Assembly: GCA_945881835.1 (NCBI GenBank) | Contig: CAMCVP010000001.1 | Coordinates: 124,001-188,000 of the forward strand | DNA: 64,000 bases | Direction of reading: 5' to 3' | Source of the DNA: Chryseobacterium gleum | Lineage (GTDB): Bacteria > Bacteroidota > Bacteroidia > Flavobacteriales_D > Sanyastnellaceae | Part shown: positions 17,641-64,000 of the stretch, piece by piece | How the letters are laid out: each line of letters begins with the position of its first letter | How positions within the stretch are numbered: position 1 is the first letter of the stretch | Translations under genes and position numbers: made by a program | The notes under the pieces: model-generated | The model's input: the letters and a program-made list of their open reading frames with translations, nothing else | Told to the model about the DNA's origin: nothing | Databases searched by the model: none

Positions 17641-18096
17641 ATGAATAGACACATTTTATTAGTTGGAATGCCCGGAAGTGGGAAGACGACAAAGGCGAGG
17701 CAGTTGGCGTTGGAGCGGGGTGTGTCGTGTTATGAGGTAGATGAGATGTTGGAGTTGAAGTGGGGAAGGAGTATTGCTGAATTTGTGGAGGAGCAGGGGT
17801 GGGAGAAATTTCGCGAGGAAGAATTTTCCATGGTGAAAACGATTTTGAACGAACCGGTGGGAATTATTTCAGCTGGAGCGGGGTTTTTCACCACTGAAGA
17901 GAAAGTTGAATTCTCTTTGAATCATTTTGAAGTGTGGTATTTGGAAGTGTCTATTGACGAGTTGTTCAACAGGCTCAACACTCCAGAGGAGCGGGCGAAG
18001 CGTCCGCTTTTGAGTGAAGGGGATTTACGCTATAAGTTGGAGGTGCTTTTGGCGGAGCGGGAGAAATTTTACTCCTTCGGATCAATCACGAAGTGA
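17641..18096 (+). CDS. Shikimate-kinase-like P-loop protein with array-derived C-terminus
   Basis: 151 residues. Shikimate kinases phosphorylate shikimate with ATP. Family features are the P-loop GMPGSGKTT, the SIAEFVEEQGWEKFREEE segment with the substrate-binding arginine, YLEVSIDELFNRL, and the RPLL lid. Several positions differ from the usual enzyme: the DxD motif reads EVD and the GGG motif reads GAG. The protein is short by roughly 15-20 residues. Its last residues (FGSITK) and stop codon lie inside palindrome array B. It may be a functional AroK, a diverged kinase or a truncated copy; the aroK of the genome could be elsewhere. Confidence 0.7.
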   Translation: MNRHILLVGMPGSGKTTKARQLALERGVSCYEVDEMLELKWGRSIAEFVEEQGWEKFREEEFSMVKTILNEPVGIISAGAGFFTTEEKVEFSLNHFEVWYLEVSIDELFNRLNTPEERAKRPLLSEGDLRYKLEVLLAEREKFYSFGSITK

Positions 18097-18230
18097 TCAA
18101 TCATCTTCGATGATCAATCTGACGCTGTCAGATCAATTGCTAAGCAATCAATCACTACGTGATTAATCGTTCCGATTTCACCGAAGGTTTGATCTGAAAG
18201 ATTGATTCGAAGAATTGATCACCTGCGGTG
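18074..18230. repeat. Palindrome array B: ATCAAT / ATTGAT linkers
   Basis: Linker ATCAAT occurs five times, plus one ATTAAT, between palindromes CC-TTC-GG, CAC-GAA-GTG, CATC-TTC-GATG, CTGAC-GCT-GTCAG, TGC-TAA-GCA, CAC-TAC-GTG and CG-TTC-CG. From about 18180 the linker appears as its complement (TTGAT, ATTGAT) between ACC-GAA-GGT, CT-GAA-AG, TC-GAA-GA and CACC-TGC-GGTG. The array thus changes orientation in the middle. Its left end lies in the coding sequence of the kinase-like gene and provides that gene's TGA. Confidence 0.85.
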
Positions 18231-18297
18231 AGTAATGTGACTCTCCTCACAACACCATTCAATTTACCATCCTACCTTCGCTCAAAATTCAAACAAC

Positions 18298-30784: not shown

Positions 30785-30876
30785 TCGATCAATCGTTTCA
30801 CGATCAAACCTTTGGTGAAATTCTTTCGAAGAATCTTGCGAAGCATCTTGTGAAACATCTTTCACTTCGTGAATCT
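30785..30876. repeat. Palindrome array C: mixed ATTGAT and AAGAT linkers
   Basis: Read on the minus strand: TCAC-GAA-GTGA, AAGAT, GT-TTC-AC, AAGAT, GC-TTC-GC, AAGAT, TC-TTC-GA, then ACC-AAA-GGT, TTGAT, CG-TGAAA-CG, ATTGAT. It joins the linker type of arrays D and E to that of array B. Its first palindrome provides the TGA stop of the transporter gene. It lies between that gene and the rplU promoter. Confidence 0.8.
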
Positions 30877-41745: not shown

Positions 41746-41782
41746 AAAGGGTTGTCGAAAGACAACCCTTTTCTTTTGTTTT
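41746..41782 (+). terminator. Rho-independent terminator after ahcY
   Basis: AAAGGGTTGTC and GACAACCCTTT form an 11-bp stem around a GAAA tetraloop, followed by TTTTCTTTTGTTTT. Confidence 0.93.
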
Positions 41783-41831
41783 ATGTTGATTGGAATAACT
41801 TAAATTCGAACCATAAATAAATGGTTTCATT

Positions 41832-42443
41832 ATGAATAGAAATTGGATTGTTCTCGTTTTAGCCATTGTTTCTTTGGCTTCTTGCTCAGTTGAGAAACGT
41901 GTTTATCAACCCGGTTACCATATAGAGTGGAATCATTTTGCTGCGCAAGACGCGGAGCAAGACGCTTCGCGAGATGTTACACAAGATGCTACGCAAGACG
42001 CTTCGCGAGATGTTACACAAGATGCTGCGCAAGACGCTTCGCGAGACCTTCCGGAGAATCTTTCGAAGAATCTTGAAACAGATGTAACACAAGATGCCAT
42101 GCAAGATGTTTCACAAGGTCGTACCGAAGGTGTTTTTCAAGATGCTGAGCAAGGTCGTACCGAAGGTGCTTCGCAAGACCTTTCGCAGGACCTTTCGAAG
42201 AATCTTTCGGAGAATCTGTTGAAGAATATAGACTCAGATTTAGAAATGATTTTGTTTATTGTACTTGCCTTGTTTCTTCCAGCGTTGACGATATTTTTGT
42301 TGGAAGGGTTTAGCAAAAACTTTTGGATTGCGCTGTTATTGATGGTACTTGCTTTTACCCTGCCTCTTCCAATTTTCTTGAAGTTAATGATTGAAGCTAT
42401 TGCAACAGTTTTGGCCATAGCCGTTGTACTTCACTATTTGTGA
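41832..42443 (+). CDS. Lipoprotein with 4-residue repeats and a YqaE/Pmp3-like membrane tail
   Basis: 203 residues in three parts. Residues 1-36 are a lipoprotein signal (VLAIVSLASC) followed by SVEKRVYQPGYHIEWN, an N-terminus seen in other Bacteroidota lipoproteins. Residues 37-132 are a 4-residue repeat (QDAx, RDVT, QDLS, ENLS) encoded by palindrome array D. Residues 138-203 are hydrophobic, with LALFLPALTIFLLEGFSKNFW resembling YqaE/Pmp3 proteolipids. The middle looks like DNA inserted in frame, because related repeats occur outside genes (array E). The function is unknown. Confidence 0.72.
   Translation: MNRNWIVLVLAIVSLASCSVEKRVYQPGYHIEWNHFAAQDAEQDASRDVTQDATQDASRDVTQDAAQDASRDLPENLSKNLETDVTQDAMQDVSQGRTEGVFQDAEQGRTEGASQDLSQDLSKNLSENLLKNIDSDLEMILFIVLALFLPALTIFLLEGFSKNFWIALLLMVLAFTLPLPIFLKLMIEAIATVLAIAVVLHYL
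41940..42227. repeat. Palindrome array D: 24 units of 12 bp inside a coding gene
   Basis: Each unit is a 7-base palindrome with 3-base loop (GC-TTC-GC, GT-TAC-AC, GC-TAC-GC, CG-TAC-CG and others) plus a 5-base linker (AAGAY, GAGAT, AAGGT). From the GAGAC / CTTCCGG / AGAAT step on, several units are read better on the other strand. The 12-bp period keeps the reading frame (four residues per unit). The order of units around the switch is shared with the minus strand of array E. Confidence 0.88.
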
Positions 42444-42467
42444 AGCAATAAATCGAACCACTAAATC

Positions 42468-60505: not shown

Positions 60506-62029
60506 ATGGAATATACTGACGCCTTTTACAACAGTCCAACCCCCGTTAACAAGGAGAAATTAGTAGTTGGAATTGACATTGGAACAACCAAGATTGCTTG
60601 TGTTGTAGGTAAAATAGATTCATTTGGAAAGGTTACCATTCTTGGTATTGGTCGCAGTAAAAGCGACGGTGTAAAGCGTGGGATAGTATTGAATATTGAT
60701 CAAACGGTTGCATCGATTAAAGAAGCCGTTCAAAAAGCTGAGATGGAATGTGGCATTAAGGTGCATCGAGTAAACGTTGGTATAGCTGGCCAGCACATTA
60801 AGAGTATTCAGCAGCCGGGTATTTATACGCGCAAGGATTTGGATACGGAGATTAACATGTCTGACTTGCAAGCGTTGAAGGAAGATATGTTTAAGATTCA
60901 CGTTCCAGCGGGCGAGTCTATTATTCACGTTATTCCGCAAGAGTATACTGTTGACACCGAAGGTGGAATTAAAGATCCAGTGGGAATGGCGGGCGTTCGT
61001 TTACAAGCTAATTTCCATATTATCACGGGTTCTCTTCCAGCCATTAAAAATATTTACCGTTGCGTGAAATTGGCGGGATTGGAAGTGGGTGAATTAACAC
61101 TAGAGCCAATCGCCAGCTCTGCAGCGGTTTTAAGTGAAGAAGAGAAAGAGGCAGGTGTTGCTTTGGTTGACATCGGTGGCGGAACAACAGATATTGCAAT
61201 ATTCTACGACGGACTGATTCGTCATACCGCTGTTATTCCTTTTGGAGGAAATATTTTGACGGAAGACATTAAGACGGGCTGTTCAATATTGAGCAAACAT
61301 GCAGAACAGTTGAAGGTTCAGTTCGGTTCGGCATTGCCTGCTGAAACGCAGAATGCGAAAGTAGTTGTTCCTGGATTGAATGGCAGATTACCGAAGGAGA
61401 TTACACTGGGTATGCTTTCAGGAATTATTGAGGCGCGCATGAAAGAGATTCTTGAGTTGGTTCATTTCGAAATTGTTCGCAGTGGCTATGAAAGAAAATT
61501 AATTGGCGGTATTGTGCTTACAGGTGGTGGTGCGCAATTGAAGCACATTAAGCAATTGGTTGAATACATTACAGGATTGGATTGTCGCATTGGTAAGCCA
61601 ATTGAGCATGTGGTTAATTATACAGACGAGTCGCAATTGCCACCTGCCCTTTCAACGGGTGTAGGTTTGGTAATAACGGGTGAAGAAAATGTGGGTGAAG
61701 ATTTCATCGAACGTGCTGTTGCAGAAGCTCAGTTGGAAGAAGTAACACTTCCGGATGAGATTGTAGAAACAGTAGGAAATGTTTCGTTGACGGAAGATTT
61801 CATGTCGTTCATGAATACAGAACTTAAGAATGACGAGCCATCGGCTGAGGAAGAAGTTGTTGCCGAGAGCAACGAAGAAACTACTGCCTCAGATGTCCAA
61901 AATGAGCGCGAAGAAGGCGAAAATCAAGAAGAAGTTGAAGAACCAATACGTAGACGTCGCAAGTCTTTTGGTGAAAGCATGTTAGGTCGTTTCAAAGGTT
62001 TCTTTGAAAACGACGAAGCAATGAATTAA
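60506..62029 (+). CDS. ftsA: Cell division protein FtsA
   Basis: 507 residues from ATG 60506. An actin-fold ATPase that tethers FtsZ to the membrane. VVGIDIGTTKIACVVGKI, the SHS2 insertion with HVIPQEYTVD, VDIGGGTTDIAIF, and GGIVLTGGGAQLKHIKQLV are all present. The acidic linker of about 65 residues ends in a basic amphipathic tail (SMLGRFKGFFEND) for membrane binding. ftsZ, which usually follows, is missing; the converging rlmD stop overlaps the ftsA stop. Confidence 0.96.
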   Translation: MEYTDAFYNSPTPVNKEKLVVGIDIGTTKIACVVGKIDSFGKVTILGIGRSKSDGVKRGIVLNIDQTVASIKEAVQKAEMECGIKVHRVNVGIAGQHIKSIQQPGIYTRKDLDTEINMSDLQALKEDMFKIHVPAGESIIHVIPQEYTVDTEGGIKDPVGMAGVRLQANFHIITGSLPAIKNIYRCVKLAGLEVGELTLEPIASSAAVLSEEEKEAGVALVDIGGGTTDIAIFYDGLIRHTAVIPFGGNILTEDIKTGCSILSKHAEQLKVQFGSALPAETQNAKVVVPGLNGRLPKEITLGMLSGIIEARMKEILELVHFEIVRSGYERKLIGGIVLTGGGAQLKHIKQLVEYITGLDCRIGKPIEHVVNYTDESQLPPALSTGVGLVITGEENVGEDFIERAVAEAQLEEVTLPDEIVETVGNVSLTEDFMSFMNTELKNDEPSAEEEVVAESNEETTASDVQNEREEGENQEEVEEPIRRRRKSFGESMLGRFKGFFENDEAMN

Positions 62030-63447
62030 TTTTTTTCGAACAGTGTCACTGCCTCTAAGTGTGAGGTGTGTGGAAACTGATCAACGAAACTAATTTTCTT
62101 CAAGTTATATCCTGAGAGAATAAGTGTCTCGCAATCTCTTGCTTGAGTGGCTGGATTGCATGAAATATAAACGATGCGCTTCGCGTCGAGTCCTATAACT
62201 TTTCTTAGCGTCTTAGGTGAAATTCCACCACGCGGCGGGTCAAGGACAAGCGTATTGATTTGATTTTGAAATTGCGGTTGTTCCAACAAGAATTTCCCTA
62301 CATCTGCTGCGAAGAATTCGATATTCGAAACGTTGTTTTCCTGGGCGTTTTTCTTTGCGTCGTCAATGGCAGCTTCCACAATGTCTACTCCTACAACCGG
62401 CAACGACGTTTTCTGCGCAATGAGTTGTCCGATTGTTCCTGTTCCGCAGAACAGATCGAGGATATATCCATTTGGAACTTCTTCCGGATTGCAGTAATCT
62501 ATGGCTTTGGTATAAAGTCTTTCAGCGCTTTTCGGATTGGTTTGAAAGAAGCTCTTCATGTTTACTTTGAACTTCAATCCCAATAAAATTTCTTCGATCT
62601 CCGAATTTCCATAGAGCAGGTGTGAAGAGCCATTCAAAGGCTCAGCACGGTCTCCTGTGTCGTCGTTCAGCGTATGAATAATTCCTCCGCAACGCTCTCC
62701 GAGTATATCTAAAACGAGTTTCACAAATCCATCGCGATCAAACTGTTCCAGTCCTTCCGATGAAGTAACAAGATTGATCAGAAGCAAGTCGTGTGTGAAT
62801 GATTTTCGAACCACAACATAGCGAAAGAATCCTTGGCGTTTCGGTGGATGCCAAGCAGGAAGTCCGCTGTTTATGCAAAAGGTGCGAATGCGATGCAGGT
62901 TGTTTTCGAATGTCGCATCGAAGAGACCCGATTCCGCATCCAGATTTTCAACCATCCACCATGTTCCTCTGTGCTTGAAACCTAATCCGAAATCATCGAG
63001 TTCCGTTTTGGTTGGAAGGTCATAGCGGATAGCGCTGAAGCTGTACTCCATTTTATTTCTGTAGTTCCAAACAGAAGGAGATTCAATGTATTCGTCGAAC
63101 AGTTCAGCAATGTTTTCAATTTTACCAATGCGCTTGTAGAGTTGAAGGCACGAATCTTTTTTCGCTTCGTGTTGCTTCTCTATGGGCCAAGCAGCGTATG
63201 GCGCGCCGGGAATGCGCTGGTAAGGCAAGTCTATTTCATCTGGAGAATTTTCAAGCACTTCAATCAATTTGCAATTTGCAAATCGCTTGTCGGACTTGAT
63301 CACTTGTGCACGCACGAGTTGTCCCGGGAATGTGTTTTCAACAAAAACAGTAAAATCGCCTTTGTCGGTTTTCAATAGCCCTATTCCATTGCCTCCAAAG
63401 GCAAAGCGGTCTATTTTAATGTCGAGTATTTGGTTTCTTTTTAGCAC
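62026..63447 (-). CDS. rlmD: 23S rRNA (uracil(1939)-C(5))-methyltransferase RlmD-like, lacking iron-sulfur cysteines
   Basis: 473 residues from GTG 63447. An N-terminal TRAM domain (IDRFAFGGNGIGLLKTDKG) is followed by the RNA methyltransferase core: SFFQTNPKSAERLY, LDLFCGTGTIGQLIA, LDPPRGGISPKTL, and the catalytic cysteine in YISCNPATQARDC. The CxxxxxCGGC cluster site of RlmD is replaced by PYQRIPGAPYAAWP, so a 4Fe-4S cluster is not expected. It could also be another RumA-type enzyme (RlmCD). Reading further upstream enters array E and is rejected. Confidence 0.85.
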   Translation of the reverse strand: MLKRNQILDIKIDRFAFGGNGIGLLKTDKGDFTVFVENTFPGQLVRAQVIKSDKRFANCKLIEVLENSPDEIDLPYQRIPGAPYAAWPIEKQHEAKKDSCLQLYKRIGKIENIAELFDEYIESPSVWNYRNKMEYSFSAIRYDLPTKTELDDFGLGFKHRGTWWMVENLDAESGLFDATFENNLHRIRTFCINSGLPAWHPPKRQGFFRYVVVRKSFTHDLLLINLVTSSEGLEQFDRDGFVKLVLDILGERCGGIIHTLNDDTGDRAEPLNGSSHLLYGNSEIEEILLGLKFKVNMKSFFQTNPKSAERLYTKAIDYCNPEEVPNGYILDLFCGTGTIGQLIAQKTSLPVVGVDIVEAAIDDAKKNAQENNVSNIEFFAADVGKFLLEQPQFQNQINTLVLDPPRGGISPKTLRKVIGLDAKRIVYISCNPATQARDCETLILSGYNLKKISFVDQFPHTSHLEAVTLFEKN

Positions 63448-63451
63448 GGGG

Positions 63452-63459
63452 CAAATATA
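63452..63459 (-). promoter_or_regulatory. -7 box of rlmD
   Basis: TATATTTG on the minus strand, 4 bases before GTG 63447; no clear -33 box, since array E begins at once upstream. A leaderless transcript starting near the GTG is predicted. Confidence 0.5.
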
Positions 63460-63462
63460 TGT

Positions 63463-63645
63463 GCGGAGCAAGATACTTTGTAAGATTCTTCGAAAGATGC
63501 TTTGCAAGATACTTTGTAAGATACTTTGTAAGATTCTTCGAAAGATGCTTTGCAAGATACTTCGTAAGATTCTCCGAAAGGTCTCGCGAAGCGTCTTGTG
63601 CAACATCTTGTGTAACATCTCGCGTAGCGTCTTGCGAAGCATTGA
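63463..63645. repeat. Palindrome array E: two converging halves, AAGAT linkers
   Basis: The left half (63463-63580) repeats AAGAT with AC-TTT-GT, TC-TTC-GA, GC-TTT-GC, AC-TTC-GT and TC-TCC-GA at a strict 12-bp period. The right half is the same type read on the minus strand (GC-TTC-GC, AAGAC, GC-TAC-GC, GAGAT, GT-TAC-AC, AAGAT, GT-TGC-AC) and matches array D. The array fills the divergent gap between rlmD and the DAEYKA-repeat gene. Confidence 0.88.
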
Positions 63646-63674: not shown

Positions 63675-64000
63675 ATGAAATCGATCGTTCTACTTTTTGC
63701 ATTGTGCGCATTTGGAATTAGCGCGAATGCTCAGAAGATTTATTCAGTAGATGCTGAATACAAGGCGCAGGTGAAGGTTTATGTGGTAGACGCCGAGTAC
63801 AAGGCAGATTTGTTGGTTTACAAGGAGAATGCGGAATACAAAGCGGGCAACAACGACGGACGTTGGTATTTCGTAGATGCAGAATACAAGGCAAATAAGA
63901 AAATATATTTTGAAGATGCCGAGTACAAAGCTGATTTGAAAATTTACTTTGTCGACGCGGAGTACAAAGCAGGTTGGAAGAATGCTTCTAAGAAGCAGTT
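63675..64000 (+). CDS. Secreted DAEYKA-repeat protein (DUF6150-like), 3' end beyond window
   Basis: At least 108 residues; the frame runs off the window. A signal peptide (SIVLLFALCAFGISANAQ) is followed by six units of 12-18 residues containing [DN]AEYKA, alternating with short hydrophobic strands (KVYVV, LLVYK, RWYFV, KIYFE, KIYFV). The last part, DLKIYFVDAEYKAGWKNASKK, resembles what I recall of the DUF6150 family. The repeat is conserved in protein but varied in codons, so it is an old repeat, unlike the adjacent DNA array. It may form a beta solenoid outside the cytoplasm. Function unknown. Confidence 0.75.
   Translation, partial: MKSIVLLFALCAFGISANAQKIYSVDAEYKAQVKVYVVDAEYKADLLVYKENAEYKAGNNDGRWYFVDAEYKANKKIYFEDAEYKADLKIYFVDAEYKAGWKNASKKQ

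Follow-up and report, generated by a model that had tools for sequence, protein, structure and literature searches.

In-frame palindromic invaders of genes are best known from Rickettsiales, where each RPE is a single element, about 100-150 bp long, whose family consensus can be recognised. In the passages cited here, RPE and their Wolbachia counterparts are described as lineage-bound palindromes lying in frame within assorted housekeeping genes, typically in non-structured segments (PMC2996958, PMC3733652). The repeats studied in this work, designated here the array D family, share with RPE their palindromic DNA (542 of 606 units) and their in-frame insertion in unrelated conserved genes that have empty orthologues (shikimate dehydrogenase, AroE; acetyl-CoA synthetase, ACS; family-2 glycosyltransferase, GT2). 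Unlike RPE, they consist of 12-bp mini-hairpins that differ in number and in their stems, reside in a Flavobacteriales genus, and are also found outside long open reading frames (ORFs) and in head-to-head arrays. PARCEL, according to the source passage, constitute tandem dyad-symmetric coding repeats that share a conserved motif of 25 residues and occur in membrane proteins and lipoproteins, in ORFs of unassigned function (PMC2996958); in the array D family, by contrast, the repeat peptide of 4 residues shows no conservation, and the DNA unit is found within enzymes as well as away from long ORFs. The protein encoded by the array D gene had no match to the PARCEL motif (DUF285/TIGR02167 type) in Pfam or NCBIfam.

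Other short palindromes resemble these arrays less closely. REP/BIME and the GTAG- and CGTC-tagged repeats with RAYT transposases are, in the portion of the source used, small interspersed bacterial palindromes that are sometimes grouped or tandem (PMC3733652), whereas the array D family displays 9-nt palindromes in a 12-bp register and a Y1 transposase is not consistently present; direct reading of the units of array D and of the other arrays of its genome (G000) revealed no GTAG or CGTC tag beside a 20-40-bp palindrome. Mitochondria, too, have short hairpins or palindromes that multiply or are located within coding sequence, namely double hairpin elements, repetitive hairpin-forming elements, palindromic microsatellites and nematomorph coding palindromes (PMC7218506, PMC6649704, in the parts cited); these are organellar, and 12-bp in-frame arrays in enzymes do not figure in those parts of their descriptions. 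CRISPR, which the cited passage describes as 24-48-bp repeats with non-repetitive spacers (PMC3733652), was considered and set aside, as the array D units consist of 3-nt linkers and 9-nt palindromes. GNA-loop mini-hairpins, d(GCGAAGC), are known as a chemical motif and as part of aptamers, whereas the array D family constitutes natural arrays, and no report of natural genome-wide GNA mini-hairpin arrays was found among the literature matches listed (open-licence papers). The nearest known kind is represented by the in-frame palindromic elements of Rickettsia and Wolbachia; the tandem mini-hairpin arrays presented here are new, and arrays of this kind in bacteria were undescribed among the literature matches listed (open-licence papers).

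We analysed a stretch of 64,000 nucleotides (the window) and compared it with related genomes, of which G001 to G008 are congeners of G000. With a probability of about 0.7, we regard array D as a member of a genus-specific family, made up of arrays of DNA mini-hairpins, that looks self-spreading, its reading as protein being a tolerated side effect. The host gene and the array are laid out as follows:

41832-42443, plus strand: lipoprotein-like gene hosting array D (ORF call, PF01679, syntenic orthologues in G001, G003, G004, G006 and G007)
41832-41936: N-terminal part of this gene
41945-42230, plus strand: array D, in which 12-bp mini-hairpin units, about 24 in number, share a single register
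41948-42043, plus strand: sense block 1, 8 units of linker AGA plus 9-nt hairpin, reading QDAx/RDVT (7 of 8 units with three stem pairs)
42044-42079, minus strand: inverted block 1, read in the gene frame as LPENLSKNLE (units marked inverted at 42050-42073)
42080-42175, plus strand: sense block 2, 8 units (7 of 8 with three stem pairs)
42176-42230, minus strand: inverted degenerate block 2, reading DLSQDLSKNLSENLLKN (units marked inverted at 42194-42217)
from about 42240: C-terminal Pmp3/YqaE-like region of the gene

The ORF (plus strand) runs uninterrupted over 203 aa, which begin with a signal-peptide-like start containing LASC, a lipobox assigned by eye, and continue with the segment EKRVYQPGYHIEW. 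About 95 repeat residues follow, and the protein ends in a hydrophobic tail, with residues 140-175 matching PF01679 (Pmp3) at 24 bits, barely above the Pfam cut-off of 22.9. The presumed lipid anchor and the membrane tail are joined by a linker that array D fills. From ORF reading, the gene is preceded by a putative S-adenosylhomocysteine hydrolase gene and lies opposite a putative short-chain dehydrogenase gene that faces it. TRF detected 12- and 36-bp arrays at 41940-42051 and 42170-42227, that is, at both ends of array D, and the stretch between them, laid out by script, shares the 12-bp register. The three stem pairs are complete in 14 of the 16 units of the two sense blocks; block orientation follows the order sense, inverted, sense, inverted, and the inverted blocks stay in frame and encode ENLSK-type peptides. 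An earlier note, made from the letters of the window, had described 24 units of 12 bp encoding a QDAx/RDVT-type repeat; the roughly 24 in-frame units between a lipoprotein-like start and a Pmp3/YqaE-like tail stand, while the uniform peptide does not, given the ENLSK-type reading of two blocks. That description did not include the covariation of the mini-hairpins, the inversion of two blocks or the insertions into further genes.

Syntenic orthologues in G001, G003, G004 and G006 agree with the G000 gene in their ends, and their middles, built of like units, span 121 to 197 residues, as compared to 101 in G000. In the array-free congener G007, the orthologue carries a non-repetitive 115-residue middle and a longer C-terminus; the expectation that orthologues would lack the middle part was therefore not borne out, the part being replaced rather than lacking. 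The pooled pN/pS was 0.12 for the N-terminal and 0.23 for the C-terminal part (ten pairs each): both ends are under purifying selection, and the middle varies in length and sequence. Relative to the orthologues of G001 or G006, array D differs by length blocks of 12, 24 and 36 bp, with additional blocks of 19 and 8 bp relative to G001. In G005 (locus L239, equivalent to window positions 41778-42467) the entire gene is absent, and 18 bp separate the flanking matches; thus, the gene is dispensable in G005. No orthologue was recovered from G002 (71% complete) or G008 (84% complete).

The unit of the family consists of a 3-nt linker (AGA or AGG) and a 9-nt mini-hairpin formed by three stem bases, three loop bases and three complementary bases, as in CGC-TTC-GCG, TGT-TAC-ACA, TGC-TAC-GCA, TCG-TAC-CGA and TGC-CAT-GCA of array D. 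Covariation was assessed in runs of at least four AGR anchors at 12-bp spacing, and the genus runs were picked by loop sequence alone, yielding 113 of 153 runs with 606 units; some of the 40 runs that failed the loop criterion correspond to arrays in the wrong phase, and the genus counts leave aside 14 outside loci, L194, L197, L200 and relatives of other genera. All three Watson-Crick pairs were found in 542 of the 606 units, as compared to 119.8 when right half-stems were shuffled (sd 9.1, max 149), a raw count that overstates independence because units share descent; when each distinct 9-mer was counted once, 74 of 119 were fully paired versus 13.4 in shuffles (max 26). Mutual information peaks at pairs 2-8 and 3-7, and pair 1-9 varies little, ranking fifth when all units are considered and third among the distinct ones. 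Fifteen different stems are in use across the arrays. Among stem-selected arrays, a TNC loop (GNA on the other strand) was present in 493 of 673 paired units and in 33 of 85 distinct units, so that the loop rule is carried largely by a small number of frequent units. Both unit orientations occur and often switch within one array, as in array D and in array E, where a sense arm is followed by an inverted one.

The type sequence of GNA-loop mini-hairpins is GCGAAGC, and unit TGCTTCGCA, which reads TGCGAAGCA on the other strand, includes it. Under nearest-neighbour models, single units fold marginally (0 to -1.0 kcal/mol), and whole arrays fold as DNA only somewhat better than shuffles (z -1.49 for array D, -2.02 for array E). 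DNA mini-hairpins with GNA loops are described as unusually stable in the cited portions of the literature (PMC6479982, citing Yoshizawa 1997; PMC10527192); the link to GNA-loop stability rests on these sources, because ViennaRNA DNA parameters show no advantage for the GNA strand.

The distribution of the family was examined by pattern search. A degenerate pattern matched 59 times in G000 and the reversed pattern 0 times. Across 60 genomes (G000 and 59 relatives), nine contained a match, and eight of these are among the nine genus genomes, their match counts ranging from 12 to 83; the single match among the 51 non-genus relatives (L058 in G034) was not an array on viewing, the reversed control pattern matched 3 times in G003, and the congener G007 (95% complete) had no pattern match. 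A scan of 84,980 species yielded 94 stretches, 80 from seven MAGs matching the congeners G001-G006 and G008 and 14 from other taxa; two viral contigs also matched. On viewing 11 of the 14 other-taxon stretches and both viral loci, most looked like low-complexity protein repeats without paired stems and were rejected as relatives from outside the genus. AGR-anchor runs of outside loci held at most four distinct units where counted (all but L194 and L200), with mostly low pairing, the exceptions being L201 (0.92), L181 (0.67) and L200 (0.67). No comparable array was found outside the genus in the 60 genomes and 84,980 species searched. Within the loci collected, 114 distinct genus array clusters of 3 to 36 counted units were identified, 33 of which lack any through-frame reaching 100 aa. 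Fifty lie in long ORFs, defined by a longest frame through the cluster of at least 200 aa that extends at least 100 bp beyond it on either side, a class in which some antisense cases may be spurious frames, while clusters failing the rule may still be terminal gene extensions, array E being an example.

The coding arrays were examined for constraint on DNA and constraint on protein. In the QDAx frame, where the fourth codon is fourfold degenerate, its third base is complementary to position 2 of the codon before it in 196 of 202 units (97.8 expected, loop-selected) and in 27 of 32 distinct units (12.3 expected). As protein-level constraint would not predict such pairing, it is the DNA unit, and not the peptide, that is maintained. 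The third base of the Asp codon and the second base of the next codon were T-A in 228 cases, C-G in 8, C-A in 5, T-G in 0 and others in 8, a covariation that is weak in distinct units (T-A 40, C-G 2, C-A 4). Selection at the protein level is nevertheless visible in the use of the frame and in the scarcity of TAA-making units: the QDAx frame is used by 41 of 43 sense runs in long ORFs (38 of 40 loop-selected), and units making TAA are rarer in coding copies (5 of 275 versus 40 of 402, stem-selected; 5 of 249 versus 20 of 293, loop-selected). The earlier note held that the frame chosen avoids stops, which our counts do not support as stated. Outside long ORFs, QDAx is the most stop-prone of the sense frames (22 stops in 1172 codons versus 16 and 5 in 1231), and yet it is the one in use; inside long ORFs it has 0 stops in 1252 codons versus 15 and 15 in 1306, partly by construction. 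It is also the most hydrophilic, with a mean hydropathy outside long ORFs of -1.11 versus -0.41 and -0.67, and the frame looks chosen for a soft peptide, not for stop avoidance. Another proposal of the same note, namely that a DNA-level element yields the peptide as a by-product, is supported: the units turn up in unrelated enzymes as well as away from long ORFs, they do so in either orientation, and synonymous positions keep the stems.

Further copies of the family and arrays with other linkers were identified in the window:

63471-63578, plus strand: array E, plus arm of 9 units, upstream of a minus-strand gene or forming its N-terminal extension
63585-63632, minus strand: array E, inverted arm of 4 units; both arms together constitute an inverted repeat
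30825-30860, minus strand: third family copy, 3 units, with a longest through-frame of 51 aa
17527-17608 (G000:C1:141527-141608): GTCATC/GATGAC-linker array with variable hairpins
18080-18231: GATCAATC-linker array with hairpins such as AATCACTACGTGATT and TCACCTGCGGTGA, including six mini-hairpins at 18150-18231

The window holds four clusters of at least four GNA/TNC mini-hairpins, as compared to 0 in 10 Markov controls. A minus-strand ORF of 538 aa (62026-63642) can start with an ATG at 63642, and its frame crosses all of array E into methyltransferase-like sequence, which begins only past the array; array E may thus represent an array-derived N-terminal extension. The claim that array E units lie outside genes is consequently ambiguous for array E itself and is clearer for the family copy at 30825-30860, which lies outside ORFs. 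The place orthologous to this copy is longer by 40+9 bp in G001 and by 28 bp in G006. Adjoining array E, at 63675-64000, we observed a gene start with a VDAEYKA-type protein repeat and a 39-bp tandem array at 63867-63971. Arrays with the GTCATC linker were found in eight of the nine genus genomes, G007 again being without them, and six other relatives gave 1 to 5 matches; their hairpins are of variable stem length, with a stem of at least 3 in 48 of 67 distinct segments versus 15.9 (max 24) when shuffled. The GATCAATC-linker family was present in seven of the nine genus genomes and in 0 of the other 51. Its covariation is only suggestive, 11 of 15 distinct segments being paired against a shuffle mean of 6.1 and a maximum of 11, which is not exceeded. 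The shared design and distribution of the three linker families suggest one underlying process.

Arrays of the family were also found within enzymes. The translations of array-bearing genes include shikimate dehydrogenase (named from PDB matches), acetyl-CoA synthetase, family-2 glycosyltransferase, an Alg9-like mannosyltransferase and others, and in phosphoglucomutase/phosphomannomutase the array lies between domains I and II. In a Pfam search of ten proteins, AMP-binding_C and Glycos_transf_2 each matched in two stretches that flank the insert. The AroE site carries sense arrays in G000, G001 and G005 and inverted arrays at the same position in G006 and G002, and is array-free in G004, in G007 and in 11 of 11 best matches outside the genus, a comparison that leaves out G003 (partial) and G008 (gene not found). 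For ACS, arrays are present in G000, G008 and G006, and array-free versions in G004, G005 and G007 (two flanking stretches 85-97% identical to G000) and in the two outgroups aligned, with G001, G002 and G003 left out. The GT2 array forms a length series in seven congeners, ranging from a single unit-length in G001 up to about 22 units in G006, and is missing from G007 and four outgroups, with G002 left out. The inserted positions are probably surface loops. The empty alleles are too diverged for exact junctions or target-site duplications to be read. Between the window and G001 or G006, indels of 8, 9, 19, 28 and 40 bp also occur, so that not all are multiples of 12. Separately, a membrane mannosyltransferase-like gene (L132:2293-4107) harbors two arrays in opposite orientations at different places, and in three genomes (L129:3192-6302, L120, L184) a protein roughly 1030 aa long carries arrays close to its N-terminus, the L129 protein displaying hexosaminidase-like and serine-hydrolase (PBP4B-like) regions below NCBIfam cut-offs.

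Because orthologous sites are occupied in some congeners and empty in others, and because opposite orientations occur at one site, we infer that the arrays move, rather than having arisen in place many times. In the mechanism that we propose, arrays would enter non-coding DNA and insert-tolerant positions in coding genes, in either orientation, and would then grow or shrink, largely in 12-bp steps, by slippage or recombination. Sense copies that persist in genes would nearly all be those in the hydrophilic QDAx frame, and inverted ones would often read [DN]LS[EK], the host protein tolerating the resulting soft linker. Stems would be kept paired through copying or repair of folded single-stranded DNA, by template switching within the hairpin, a process that in the part of the source cited both creates and repairs stems (PMC8794818); it is probably the DNA hairpin, and not an RNA, that matters. 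A Y1 transposase was considered as the driver, a role that the distribution of Y1_Tnp (PF01797) does not strictly fit: it is present in four of the eight array-bearing genomes and absent from G003 (96% complete) and from the array-free G007. Reverse-transcriptase copying was set aside, with no PF00078 match in 13 genomes; of these two enzymes, Y1_Tnp and reverse transcriptase, neither could be tied to the arrays as a mobiliser. A more far-reaching version, tentative and rather doubtful at present, is that of a gene-free self-amplifying DNA element, in which single-stranded copies fold into C-GNA-G hairpins and one half-stem templates the other, with AGA, GTCATC and GATCAATC linker arrays spreading in one genus, housekeeping enzymes included; if this were true, stem pairing would stem from the copying process and not from selection.

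Other explanations account for part of these observations. One that is purely mutational, in which microsatellites are born in place by slippage and hairpin-templated repair keeps their stems without any mobility, agrees with the 12-bp length steps and with template switching, documented in the cited passage as creating and fixing stems (PMC8794818). We nonetheless consider it unlikely, since in-place birth predicts neither the reappearance of one set of linkers and stems at dozens of unrelated places nor the nearly identical genus distribution of three linker families. If selection had instead favoured QDAx as a disordered linker, spread in the form of a peptide-coding microsatellite, its DNA likeness being secondary, the frame common to 41 of 43 sense runs in long ORFs, the fact that this frame is the most hydrophilic, and the G007 lipoprotein middle, also long and hydrophilic at 115 aa, would all be accounted for. 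Identical units, however, also lie in places devoid of a long frame and occur in either orientation, inverted copies at the AroE position yield an unrelated peptide, fourfold synonymous positions are tied to the stem, and insert-free versions of the enzymes exist in congeners, which makes an origin at the protein level quite improbable.

Stem covariation is a classical sign of RNA structure, and transcribed mini-hairpins might act in mRNA through stability, termination or protein binding. We give this little credence: among the mismatched pairs (n = 88) there were 13 G-T and 20 A-C, with no G-T excess such as a one-strand RNA stem predicts, one sense transcript holds both orientations, the window has no Rfam match at the gathering threshold, and 3-bp RNA stems are marginal. 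Dyad symmetry and the regular 12-bp spacing would also suit tandem sites for a sequence-specific DNA-binding protein, which appears very improbable in view of the 15 different stems and of a symmetry that is conserved more than base identity.

Read as copies of a mini-hairpin DNA family, these arrays indicate that a lineage distant from Rickettsiales carries a modular version of in-frame palindromic insertion, with a minimal unit, occupied and empty orthologous sites, and length series in single enzymes. Synonymous-site covariation provides a built-in test that separates DNA-level from protein-level maintenance, and annotators should be warned that repeat peptides of this sort can be by-products of DNA. 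Taken together, the family constitutes a tractable system for the study of compensatory stem change, of gene-free repeat spread, and of enzymes gaining long soft insertions.
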